The notes below the pieces were generated by a model. It saw only the letters and a list, made by a program, of their open reading frames with translations. It ran no database searches and was not told where the DNA came from. Below, one piece after another: positions 8,185 to 11,075 of a stretch of 64,000 bases of DNA. Both the position numbers and the translations under genes were made by a program. Origin of the DNA: Acidobacteriaceae bacterium (GTDB lineage Bacteria > Acidobacteriota > Terriglobia > Terriglobales > Acidobacteriaceae); contig PLHW01000046.1 of assembly GCA_003139095.1 (NCBI GenBank), forward strand, positions 1-64,000, in the 5' to 3' direction. Numbering within the stretch: the stretch's first letter is position 1; every line of letters starts with the position of its first letter.

Positions 8185-8823
8185 TCAGCTTGCAGGCGCA
8201 GTCGGCAGCTCCGCGTATTGCTCCGGCGTGTCAACATTGCTGACCACGAGTGGATCGTTCACCGCAACGTACACGATCTTTTCGCGGTTCGCCTGCTCAA
8301 TCTCCCGCGCATTCGACGTAAAGGGCGCTTTCAGGAACGCTTCCATCATCTCGCGTCCCACCAGAATCGGATGCCCGTGCTGCCCCTTATATTCCGGCGC
8401 AACCGTCCACTTCGCTTGTCCAAGCGCTTCTTCAAACGCGTCTTCCAGCGTCTGAATCGTCGCTGGCTGTACCGGCGGCCGGTCCACCAGCGTAATCAAG
8501 GCTGCATCTCGCCCCCGATTCAGCACTTCCCGCAAGCCGGCTTGCAGCGAGCTGAATTGTCCGCGCTCCGGATGCGGATTCACCACCAGCGACGCCCCGT
8601 TCGCATAAATCACCGGCGCAAGTTCATTCTGATTTTTCCCCGCGACCACCAGCACCACGTCGACGAAAGGATCGAAAAGCTGAATCCCCGCGGAAAGAAA
8701 CGTCCCCGCCGCAAACGATCCCGTCGCCAGCGGAGGCCACGGCAGCAGCGCCTTGTCCCGGCCCATGCGCGAAGAGTCCCCCGCCGCCAGGATCACGCCG
8801 CACAAGCTCCACGTCCGTCCCAT
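8185..8823 (-). CDS. MobA-like nucleotidyltransferase (MocA/NTP_transf_3 type)
   Basis: A 212-residue protein beginning MGRTWSLCGVILAAGDSSRMG, with the nucleotide-binding loop LAAGDSSRMGRDKALLPW. VDRPPVQP and GQHGHPILVGREM are the other family landmarks, matching molybdenum cofactor cytidylyltransferase (MocA) and related enzymes. The start is ATG 8823 because the motif begins about 8 residues later; the frame upstream to 8931 is not conserved-looking and includes a GC hairpin. A role in molybdopterin maturation is plausible, but no other Mo-cofactor gene is nearby. Confidence 0.85.
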   Translation of the reverse strand: MGRTWSLCGVILAAGDSSRMGRDKALLPWPPLATGSFAAGTFLSAGIQLFDPFVDVVLVVAGKNQNELAPVIYANGASLVVNPHPERGQFSSLQAGLREVLNRGRDAALITLVDRPPVQPATIQTLEDAFEEALGQAKWTVAPEYKGQHGHPILVGREMMEAFLKAPFTSNAREIEQANREKIVYVAVNDPLVVSNVDTPEQYAELPTAPAS

Positions 8824-8908
8824 GTGGCAAAGATAACAGTCTGACCTCGCCCTGCCAAGGCCGAACCTCACCCGTCTGGTCGTAGCGTCAGTATCCTCGC
8901 CGGCTGTC

Positions 8909-8929
8909 GCGAGGGCGTCGCGCCCTCGC
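8909..8929. repeat. GC-rich hairpin, GGGCGTC family
   Basis: GCGAGGGCG-TCG-CGCCCTCGC is a perfect 9-bp stem with a 3-nt loop, between the DedA-rhodanese stop and the nucleotidyltransferase start. There is no T run, so it is not a standard terminator. A very similar hairpin stands at 25030-25051. Confidence 0.8.
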
Positions 8930-8958
8930 ATGCCGTTCGCAATTCCGCTCCAGAACGT

Positions 8959-9930
8959 TCAGCTGAACATCGGCAGCTTCACCACATCGTCGTGCGGCAC
9001 CGGTTCCACCGCATGCCCGGCCCTGCGCCACGCGCGCAACCCGCCCGCGATTACAAATACTTTGAATCCGTCTCGCTGCAAGATTTGCGCCACCCGGGCG
9101 CTTGTGCCTTCGCGCACTCAAGTACAGTAAAGGTAGATCTCTTTTTCGTTCGAAAGCGCCTTGATCTCCTCCGCCAGGTGATTGGGCTCGAGGCGAACCG
9201 ATCCCGCAATGCGCTCCGAGTCGGCGTCGTAATAGCCGTGGCTGCGCACATCGGCGATCACAATGCTTCCCGGCGGCGCCGTCGCCAGGCGTTCCGCCAA
9301 CTCTTCGGCTGACACGCGCGGCGCCGTATCCATTAGCCGGTATTTTCGGTAGATGAGGACGCGATACACAATGTATGCGGCCAGCCCGATCCCCAACACG
9401 GCTTCCGCCGCCGATCCCGCTGACCGCAGTCCGTTCGTGATCGCTCGCAGCGCATCGCTGAACACGTAGCCTGCCGCCGCGTACGCCCCAATGTAGAGCG
9501 CCGCGCCCATGGTATCGAACGCCAGAAATTGCTCCGGCCGCATCCGCATGCTTCCCGCCAGCGGCGGAGACATCGTATTGATCCCGGGAATAAATTTGGC
9601 AAACAGCAACGTCAGCTTGCCGCGCCGGTAAAAATATTCCGCCGAGCGTAATATGCACGTCTCCGGATTCGCCGACAACCGGCACAGAAAGCCAAGCAGC
9701 GCCCAGCCACTCGCTCTGCCCGCGTAATACAAAAGAATGTCGCCGCAGAGCATCGCCAACATCCCGGTGAGAAATACCACATAAAAATGCATCTGCCCAA
9801 AAGCGGCAATCGCGCCCGCCGTCAAAATCGCAAGCGCCGCCGGCAGCGGCAGCCCAATCGCTTCCGCAAAACAAATCGCCGCCAGCAGCGCGTACCCATG
9901 GCGCGACACAAGTGTCAGCAGATCGTTCAT
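8959..9930 (-). CDS. DedA-family membrane protein fused to rhodanese domain, read through an in-frame TGA (possible selenocysteine)
   Basis: Residues 1 to about 200 form a DedA/SNARE-associated membrane domain (MNDLLTLVSRHGYALLAA, then FAKFIPGINTMSPPLAGS). A C-terminal rhodanese domain follows (VSAEELAERL, IVIADVRSHGYYDAD, GSVRLEPNHL). The frame meets TGA at 9118-9120 directly after EIYLYCT. In the same frame 52 more codons encode a normal rhodanese end (VREGTSARVAQIL, AGGLRAWRRAGH, KLPMFS) to a TGA at 8959-8961. In DedA-rhodanese relatives I expect Cys at the TGA position (YCTCxxExTSAR). Either TGA encodes selenocysteine, helped by the hairpin at 9079-9104, or this is a nonsense mutation or sequencing error. 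The full product would be 323 residues, the stopped form 270. The start is ATG 9930; TATACT about 30 nt upstream may be the -10. Confidence 0.78.
9079..9104 (-). promoter_or_regulatory. Candidate bacterial SECIS hairpin downstream of the in-frame TGA
   Basis: Reading the minus strand and counting from the base after TGA, bases 17-21 (GCGCC) pair perfectly with 27-31 (GGCGC) around loop CGGGT (22-26). CAA at 14-16 can pair with TTG at 37-39 below an internal bulge. Bacterial SECIS elements usually place a small G-containing apical loop about 16-37 nt after the UGA, and this fits. A competing stem (TGCGC at 2-6 with GCGCA at 28-32) is possible. The stem is also coding, so codon bias in a GC-rich gene could produce it by chance. 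Confidence 0.4.
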
Positions 9931-10044
9931 AGCAGACCATTCACCGCAGAATAATTTGTGTAGTATAGCAACCGAAGCGCGGCCGCTAGTAGAGAGCAAC
10001 ACGGGGAAGGGAAGTGCACTCCGTCAAAAGGAAACTTCGCTCAT

Positions 10045-10088: not shown

Positions 10089-11075
10089 CTACTTCTCCCG
10101 CGCCACCACAAACTCCGGAGCCCACAGCAACGCCCTCTTGATCTCCGAGTCCGGAAACACGCAAATCGCCTGCCGCGCCGATTCCGCATACCGCGCTGCC
10201 TCGCCCGTCGCATACTCGAGCGAGCCATAACGGCTGAGAATCGTCAGAATGTCCGCATGCGTCACGCCATTAAACGCGCGGTCGCGCAGCACGGCTTCGA
10301 TCTGTACGCGCTCTGTCCCCGTACACCGTTCCAGCGCGTGAATCACCGCCATCGTCGCCTTGCCTTCGCGCAAATCGCTCGCCACCGGCTTGCCCAGCAC
10401 GCTCTCTGACGCGGTCAGGTCCAGCACATCGTCCACAATCTGGAACGCCATTCCCAGGTCGCGTCCATACTGCCCCAGCCGCTCTTCCTGCTGCACCGTC
10501 GCGCCCCCCAGAATCCCGCCCACCCGCATGCACACCGAAAACAGGCACGCCGTCTTGCGGTAAATCAGGTCCAGGTATTCCGCCACTGAGATCGGCCTTC
10601 CCAGCTTTTCCATTTGCAGCAGTTCGCCCTCAACCATCTGCTGCGTCAGTTCCGTCAGCACGTCCAGAATGCGGAAATTCCGCTCCTGCACCGCGATCTT
10701 GAACGCCTGCATGTACAGCCAGTCGCCCGCCAGCACGCATTTCGAATTTCCCCACTGCGTGTTGGCCGCCGGCCGCCCGCGCCGGATCTCCGCCTCATCG
10801 ATAATGTCGTCGTGCACCAGCGTCGCCGTATGAATGATCTCCACCACCGACGCCAGCTTCACCGCGCCCGCGCCTTTATAGCCGAGCAGCTTTGCCGAAA
10901 GCAGCAGCAGCGCCGGCCGAATGCGCTTGCCCCCGCCCGCCCGCAAATACTCGCCAATCTCCGTTATGGCCGCTACGTTTGAGACCGTGTCCTGCCCGAA
11001 CTGCTCCTCGATCGCGACAATGTCGTCGCGCAGCAGGTCGAAAATCTCTTTCCCGTTAATGGCGGTTGTGCTCAA
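10089..11075 (-). CDS. Trans-prenyl (polyprenyl) diphosphate synthase
   Basis: A 328-residue IspB/HepT-like enzyme that condenses isopentenyl diphosphate with allylic diphosphates to make long-chain precursors, probably the menaquinone side chain. The first aspartate-rich motif is LVHDDIIDEAEIRRG and the second FQIVDDVLDLTAS; GGGKRIRPALLLL is the N-terminal substrate motif. The start appears to be TTG 11075 (TTGAGCACAACC), with a weak GGAAA upstream. Chain length cannot be read with confidence, though long-chain synthesis is usual for this length. The stop lies in a word-repeat run. Confidence 0.9.
   Translation of the reverse strand: MSTTAINGKEIFDLLRDDIVAIEEQFGQDTVSNVAAITEIGEYLRAGGGKRIRPALLLLSAKLLGYKGAGAVKLASVVEIIHTATLVHDDIIDEAEIRRGRPAANTQWGNSKCVLAGDWLYMQAFKIAVQERNFRILDVLTELTQQMVEGELLQMEKLGRPISVAEYLDLIYRKTACLFSVCMRVGGILGGATVQQEERLGQYGRDLGMAFQIVDDVLDLTASESVLGKPVASDLREGKATMAVIHALERCTGTERVQIEAVLRDRAFNGVTHADILTILSRYGSLEYATGEAARYAESARQAICVFPDSEIKRALLWAPEFVVAREK

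Follow-up and report, generated by a model that had tools for sequence, protein, structure and literature searches.

A predicted selenocysteine in the rhodanese active loop of a DedA-family membrane protein from Acidobacteriota

In the window, the stretch of 64,000 nucleotides of Acidobacteriaceae DNA analysed here, a minus-strand frame that begins with an ATG at 9930 and ends at a terminal TGA at 8959-8961 contains a further TGA within the coding sequence of a two-domain protein. The question raised by this locus is whether the internal codon is decoded as selenocysteine (Sec), is the outcome of a nonsense mutation or a sequencing error, or is read through by other means. The evidence from comparative sequence analysis makes it very probable that the gene encodes a selenoprotein with selenocysteine inserted at the UGA of residue 271. 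The features of the gene are as follows.

8959..9930, minus strand: predicted VTT(DedA)-rhodanese selenoprotein gene, 323 amino acids with Sec271
9118..9120, minus strand: predicted Sec codon TGA, residue 271; TGA in 94 recovered loci, Cys in 24
9466..9822, minus strand: VTT/DedA membrane domain, residues 37-155 (PF09335, 49.3 bits against a cut-off of 33.9)
9022..9312, minus strand: rhodanese domain, residues 207-303 (PF00581, 41.1 bits against a cut-off of 22.2)

The residues around the site read KEIYLYCT-TGA(9118-9120)-VREGTSARVAQILQ, and the corresponding read-through product is KEIYLYCT-U-VREGTSARVAQIL, with the terminal TGA 52 codons on. The initial annotation had described an in-frame TGA at 9118-9120 of the minus strand within a VTT/DedA-rhodanese fusion, which is borne out by frame reading and by the two Pfam matches, both exceeding the gathering score when the read-through protein is scanned; its statement that the frame is otherwise unbroken also holds, the 323-residue reading being interrupted at this codon only. 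In its account of the codons that follow the internal TGA, the 13 of the first part are correct and the remainder is 39 rather than 40. Those same-genus orthologues whose sequence is available in full terminate at an identical distance from their TGA. In another frame of the minus strand, an open frame of 350 codons (window 8888-9940) overlaps the gene and, given the many overlapping frames in the list of open reading frames, is probably a chance occurrence.

Among the fetched loci that were read, C-[TSA]-TGA is found at the aligned site in 94, nearly all of them from the window's phylum, and Cys replaces the TGA in 24. The 94 include two second copies (L095 of L039 and L097 of L045), which are excluded from the stem, residue and tree counts, and six loci without a DedA part (L074, L075, L076, L138, L139 and L140), which are excluded together with L086 from the genome and tree counts; additionally, L030, whose contig ends inside the SECIS, is left out of the stem counts, and frames of at most 250 residues are left out of the residue counts. 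The Cys set is a sample to which about 40 TGA-less fusion matches among the matches listed do not belong, and four Cys fusions read later (L161-L164) enter no count, L077 being omitted as well. Some match was obtained in 100 of the 101 genomes comprising the window's own and 100 relatives, and of the 24 genomes that represent the window's genus, the window's own genome among them, 23 have a fusion with TGA at the motif, whereas G007 gives no fusion match. In the phylum sample, some match is present in 292 of 396 genomes and the TGA forms extend to distantly related families: in the fusion tree, 16 family codes are represented among the 85 Sec rows. A scan of named genomes with a single protein query returned two loci, namely one weak Paenibacillus match and L086, an orthologue from a Terriglobia (Acidobacteriota) MAG that is 61% identical and reads C-S-TGA.

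The in-frame TGA aligns with Cys in homologues and its flanks are conserved, and homologues with either TGA or Cys show a context of the expected type, Y-C-T-C-x-x-E-x-T-S-A-R. Scattered other stops in the rhodanese part of close relatives had been named as a refuting observation; in 118 fusion or rhodanese frames (94 Sec and 24 Cys), no other internal stop was found. Within the genus, the median dN/dS is 0.107 after the TGA (228 pairs) and 0.093 before it (222 pairs); since the two values are close, the part 3' of the TGA appears to be translated and selected. The alternative already raised in the initial annotation is that TGC or TGT was changed to TGA, or was miscalled as such; the gene would then be dead, a pseudogene or simply misread. 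Such a change requires one step from either Cys codon and the source is a draft assembly of 75 contigs, but the constraint after the TGA, the lack of any other internal stop and a conserved and covarying hairpin, described below, all speak against it. It is contradicted by the TGA recurring at the same codon in the 94 loci, and because these lie in the genomes of many other species, mutation or base-call error is decisively disfavoured and was rejected, with a residual probability close to nil.

A bacterial SECIS element would be expected shortly after a decoded UGA, and the initial annotation had pointed to a hairpin at nucleotides 17-31 after the TGA, a position that proved accurate.

9087..9101, minus strand: predicted apical SECIS hairpin GCGCC-CGGGT-GGCGC, with its loop 21 nt after the TGA

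The stem is formed by 9097-9101 and 9087-9091 around the loop at 9092-9096. According to a published figure legend, bacterial SECIS elements have an upper stem of 4-16 bp, a loop of 3-9 nt with a G in its first two bases, a distance of 16-37 nt from the UGA and a minimum free energy of at most -7.5 kcal/mol (PMC13188914). The hairpin in the window agrees with these constraints, with 5 bp, a loop of CGGGU and a distance of 21 nt, and the 15-nt hairpin alone reaches -7.6 kcal/mol, just within the limit.

The inner 4 bp of the stem form in 89 of 91 Sec loci versus 3 of the 24 with Cys (Fisher p 9e-18, computed on rows that are related), and all five pairs form in 80 of 91 versus 2 of 24, the expectation from synonymous codons for the 91 Sec loci being 16.5 for the inner four and 4.6 for the five. 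A loop G with G or U as its 3' neighbour is present in 91/91 Sec loci and 7/24 Cys loci; a G anywhere in the first two loop bases, found in all 91 Sec loci, is by itself non-discriminating because 20 of the 24 Cys loci share it. The Arg codon CGC, the commonest Arg codon in these genes (47%), occupies the loop codon in none of the 91 Sec loci and in 9 of the 24 Cys loci, and the stem codons +6, +7, +9 and +10 top the codon-conservation ranking over the scored positions -60 to +44. In 66 distinct rows, 97.0% of the stem cells are paired versus 94.5% in shuffles, none of 500 being as high, and RNAalifold recovers the inner four pairs. Two stem pairs change on both sides with pairing kept, in 6 cells, of which three fall in one clade (L047-L049), one of the two covarying pairs being confined to a single clade; 18 of 500 shuffles reach two such pairs. 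Folding energy is not unusual, either for the window's 42 nt (z = -1.16) or for the 15-nt hairpin (z = -1.45), and 54-nt stretches compared with synonymous shuffles give mean z values of -0.10 for 59 Sec and -0.37 for 9 Cys loci, with no separation. Sec and Cys loci are separated by the position-specific stem test, the loop signature and the covariation, not by folding energy. Because the TGA recurs in 94 loci and the stem exceeds the codon expectation, the combination of TGA and hairpin is not attributable to chance.

The genome search for selA, selB, selC and selD suggested at the outset recovers all four genes. In the window's genome, selA (525.2 bits), selB (361.3 bits) and selD are over their cut-offs, and a tRNA-Sec of 69.5 bits, also over its cut-off, is assigned the anticodon tca by ARAGORN. 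The selD gene (L088, G000:C2:81181-82173) itself carries an in-frame TGA, where it reads KAAGUASKL, and is an internal control for the use of Sec. No stop codon other than TGA was seen at the position corresponding to residue 271, which would also accord with read-through by codon reassignment or a suppressor tRNA independent of a Sec system, yet the SECIS and the complete Sec machinery are present, and this explanation is considered very improbable. Reassignment of TGA throughout the genome was rejected because the same gene and several of its orthologues terminate at TGA.

Of the 102 genomes counted for their fetched fusion loci, 81 have a Sec fusion and 21 have Cys fusions only; selB is over the cut-off in 74 of the former and 6 of the latter (Fisher p 1.6e-8); in the phylum sample, selB status was taken from the best E-values. 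Seven Sec genomes have no selB over the cut-off, five of which possess a tRNA-Sec of 61-76 bits; in the other two, G018 (80% complete) and G047 (75%), no tRNA-Sec was found to score above the tRNA-Ser-like background either. Each of the 6 Cys-only genomes in which selB is present has a tRNA-Sec match of at least 64 bits. In the 15 Cys-only genomes without selB, the matches do not exceed 51.3 bits; three of them (51.3, 49.0 and 47.6 bits) exceed 47 bits, the gathering score set by Rfam, and lie near the tRNA-Ser match in the window's genome, which has 47.8 bits. The link between Sec and selB is not independent of descent, because the tree holds few independent switches between Sec and Cys: it needs 8 changes, 4 of them forced by well supported branches, and one Cys clade of 12 rows, all from selB-less genomes, carries much of the association. 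A phylogenetically controlled test with 4 independent pairs on well supported branches, typically 1 of which differs in selB, was not significant.

A paralogue in the window's genome (L060, G000:C32:5657-6565) has a Cys codon, TGT, in place of the TGA. All five pairs of the stem are retained around a loop of ATTTT, without G, whereas the sister row on the tree, the Sec form L070, has the loop AGTCT; the hairpin of L060 looks like a decayed, possibly fossil SECIS left by a Sec-to-Cys change, although the change may have run the other way.

For the selenoprotein reading, SelB and tRNA-Sec would decode the UGA at residue 271 under the guidance of the hairpin 21 nt downstream, and the product would be a membrane protein of the DedA (VTT) family that ends in a rhodanese domain with Cys269-Thr-Sec271 in its active loop. 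The residue preceding the loop Thr is located as follows.

9124..9126, minus strand: codon of Cys269 in the C-x-U motif; the catalytic Cys of 6mxv, a rhodanese, aligns here

Cys269 is kept in 87/87 Sec rows and 23/23 Cys rows. In the alignment with 6mxv (E 8.8e-8 for the whole chain), it stands at the catalytic place and the Sec lies in a loop longer by two residues; the alignment with 3nhv has no two-residue gap at this loop. The motifs that we take to mark an active rhodanese, namely a catalytic Cys whose loop follows a strand, D-x-R and GG...W, are represented by C269, D227 and R229, and G296, G297 and W301. In an AlphaFold model built from two sequences, of which no more than a portion of the rhodanese domain is usable, the loop is placed between a strand at 264-268 and a helix at 274-286, with low confidence at 271-274, and many PDB matches of the model, among the matches listed, carry rhodanese titles.

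Rhodaneses with a CxU motif are listed as a predicted selenoprotein form, rhodanese-like protein form 3 (PMC13188914, PMC9312934). The best NCBIfam match of the window protein is the corresponding model NF041203 (rhodanese_LYCAU, 'rhodanese-related (seleno)protein'), with which it shares the C-x-U in the active-site loop (YLYCTU), although its 80.7 bits remain below the cut-off of 115, and the 126 positions of the model cover the rhodanese only, whereas the window protein adds a DedA domain. Other Sec fusions score similarly against this model (L086 81.6, L058 93.9 and L117 76.8 bits), and of the DedA-less rhodanese frames scanned (L074, L075, L138 and L140), L138 passes with 125.2 bits, the other three reaching 105.9, 108.8 and 108.6 bits. 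The remaining forms in the same source, namely rhodanese selenoproteins of forms 1, 2 and 4 and the rhodanese/DsbD fusion TsoB of form 5 (PMC13188914), likewise have Sec in a rhodanese but differ in their motifs (UxxS, UxxG and UxxxxU) and in their fusion partner. The two-domain architecture of the window protein is the same as that of the Cys-type proteins annotated as DedA family protein/thiosulfate sulfurtransferase GlpE in Xanthomonas and Cupriavidus, in which Cys aligns with the Sec in the motif Y-C-A-C-P-x-E (three read), and PA1209 is described as a Cys-type VTT-rhodanese fusion (PMC12893004).

No report of a Sec-containing DedA-rhodanese fusion was found among the papers listed in searches of the open-licence literature on selenoproteins, rhodaneses, DedA and VTT proteins, selenite and Acidobacteriota, and no curated model of a Sec-containing DedA fusion was found, none of the NCBIfam models reaching its cut-off on the window protein. 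CxU rhodaneses and Cys-type DedA fusions are known, and within these searches the selenium form of the DedA fusion appears to be new. Because no NCBIfam model reaches its cut-off, standard annotation is expected to stop at residue 270, and such an annotation would lose about half of the rhodanese domain. For Acidobacteriota, a survey from 2006 tabulates 3 families with 4 selenoproteins (PMC1794560, Table 2), and 3 known selenoprotein genes are given for the test genome of this phylum in a 2025 study (PMC12013277).

Several related loci were observed in the course of the analysis. Five loci of the same phylum (L074, L075, L076, L138 and L140) encode C-T-TGA rhodaneses with a similar hairpin and no DedA part. 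At L139/L153 (G469:C13), the membrane part of the encoded protein matches potassium/proton antiporter models at scores under their cut-offs and is followed by a C-terminal C-S-TGA rhodanese; this locus is a candidate for a second transporter-rhodanese selenoprotein and suggests that CxU rhodaneses may serve more widely as modules of transporters. In L158 (G314:C8) and L159 (G420:C2), the rhodanese part is out of frame with the DedA part, and these are split or damaged genes.

In the membrane domain to which the rhodanese is attached, two Cys residues are conserved.

9682..9684, minus strand: codon of Cys83, first of the conserved VTT pair according to the row counts
9655..9657, minus strand: codon of Cys92, second of the VTT pair according to the row counts; lacking in fusion L161

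Both residues are present in 86/86 Sec and 23/23 Cys DedA fusions and in none of the first 12 rhodanese-less DedAs, which come from related genomes, and the pair is also found in three Pseudomonadota Cys fusions, one from Xanthomonas and two from Cupriavidus. It is not strictly tied to the rhodanese, because L157 and L160, with no rhodanese in the frame read, keep both Cys and L161 is without Cys92. Three of these 12 rhodanese-less DedAs (L149, L150 and L151) have His at both places, which suggests paired ligand or redox roles for these positions. In stand-alone DedAs, the positions of E23, D64 and K112 are occupied mostly by E, D and R/K, respectively, K112 standing where the rhodanese-less DedAs have R in 8 of 12 and K in 4 of 12. 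At the Arg position of the PG-x-R motif, Arg occurs in 0 of 109 DedA-rhodanese fusions with a letter there, which have N, S, A or G instead (N118 in the window protein), versus 9 of 12 rhodanese-less DedAs, the other three having Asp. We take this position to be that of Arg136 in YghB, a protein outside the alignment. Arg136 of YghB is called essential (PMC10127716). The membrane part of the model has a mean pLDDT of 51.7.

The VTT domain is shared with the COG0586 DedA proteins UptA, YghB and YqjA, and COG0586 DedAs, rhodanese fusions among them, are regarded as putative flippases of undecaprenyl phosphate (UndP) (PMC10127716). The selenoprotein could accordingly be an UndP flippase whose rhodanese acts as a redox or sulfur sensor regulating lipid recycling, a role that is possible on present evidence and is put forward with reserve. 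The COG0586-like VTT domain and the matches to the UptA models point in this direction, the latter below the cut-off (43.7 bits against 300 and 25.4 against 250), but in contrast to these flippases the window protein has no PG-x-R Arg and possesses the extra Cys pair and the rhodanese tail. The genes on either side are as follows.

10089..11075, minus strand: polyprenyl synthetase gene just upstream (PF00348, 245.5 bits)
8185..8844, minus strand: MobA-like NTP transferase gene just downstream (PF12804, 100.4 bits)

In 71 loci the DNA upstream extends for 1 kb or more; a polyprenyl synthetase lies directly upstream on the same strand in 27 of them and was not found in the other 44, so that the linkage is not phylum-wide. 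It was found in no locus of another family code with enough upstream DNA, and L086, whose family code is unassigned, has it. Within the lineage of the window itself, this neighbour favours the lipid reading. The MobA-like neighbour was matched in 21 of 118 loci, many of them with short flanks. Because the PG-x-R Arg is replaced, the substrate probably does not belong to the classical undecaprenyl-phosphate cycle.

Selenium or metalloid oxyanions might instead be handled by the protein, with the Cys pair and the C-x-U as ligands or reductant in the uptake or detoxification of selenite. A DedA protein was reportedly linked to selenite resistance by Ledgham in 2005, in a strain that was presumably Cupriavidus metallidurans CH34, and CH34 has a Cys-type DedA-rhodanese fusion, which may or may not be the reported protein. 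None of the 6 neighbour genes scanned with Pfam belongs to a metalloid-resistance family, and such a role is considered unlikely.

Another reading is a thiol/selenol or sulfur relay between the rhodanese and the membrane domain. Cys269, as the usual rhodanese nucleophile, would take up sulfane sulfur or become oxidised, Sec271 would then attack Cys269, with a Cys-Sec bridge forming as the load is released, and the rhodanese would serve as a fast thiol/selenol redox or sulfur relay with Cys83/Cys92 of the membrane domain. We lean to this relay because the VTT Cys pair is conserved in the fusions and the PG-x-R Arg is replaced; it is nonetheless a tentative proposal and is held equally likely with the UndP role. 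The fuller picture, a selenium-dependent membrane redox or sulfur-relay system in which a DedA-type transporter fold with a Cys pair in place and the phosphate-binding Arg missing would be driven by a Cys-Thr-Sec rhodanese, is rather doubtful.

The connection between rhodanese and UndP in DedA fusions has been called unclear (PMC10127716), and the pairs of Sec and Cys orthologues with a marked active site make this question testable. If the relay were true, sulfane sulfur or thiol-selenol chemistry would be coupled to the movement of a substrate other than UndP across the inner membrane, and a selenium-dependent DedA relay would be widespread in the phylum of the window.
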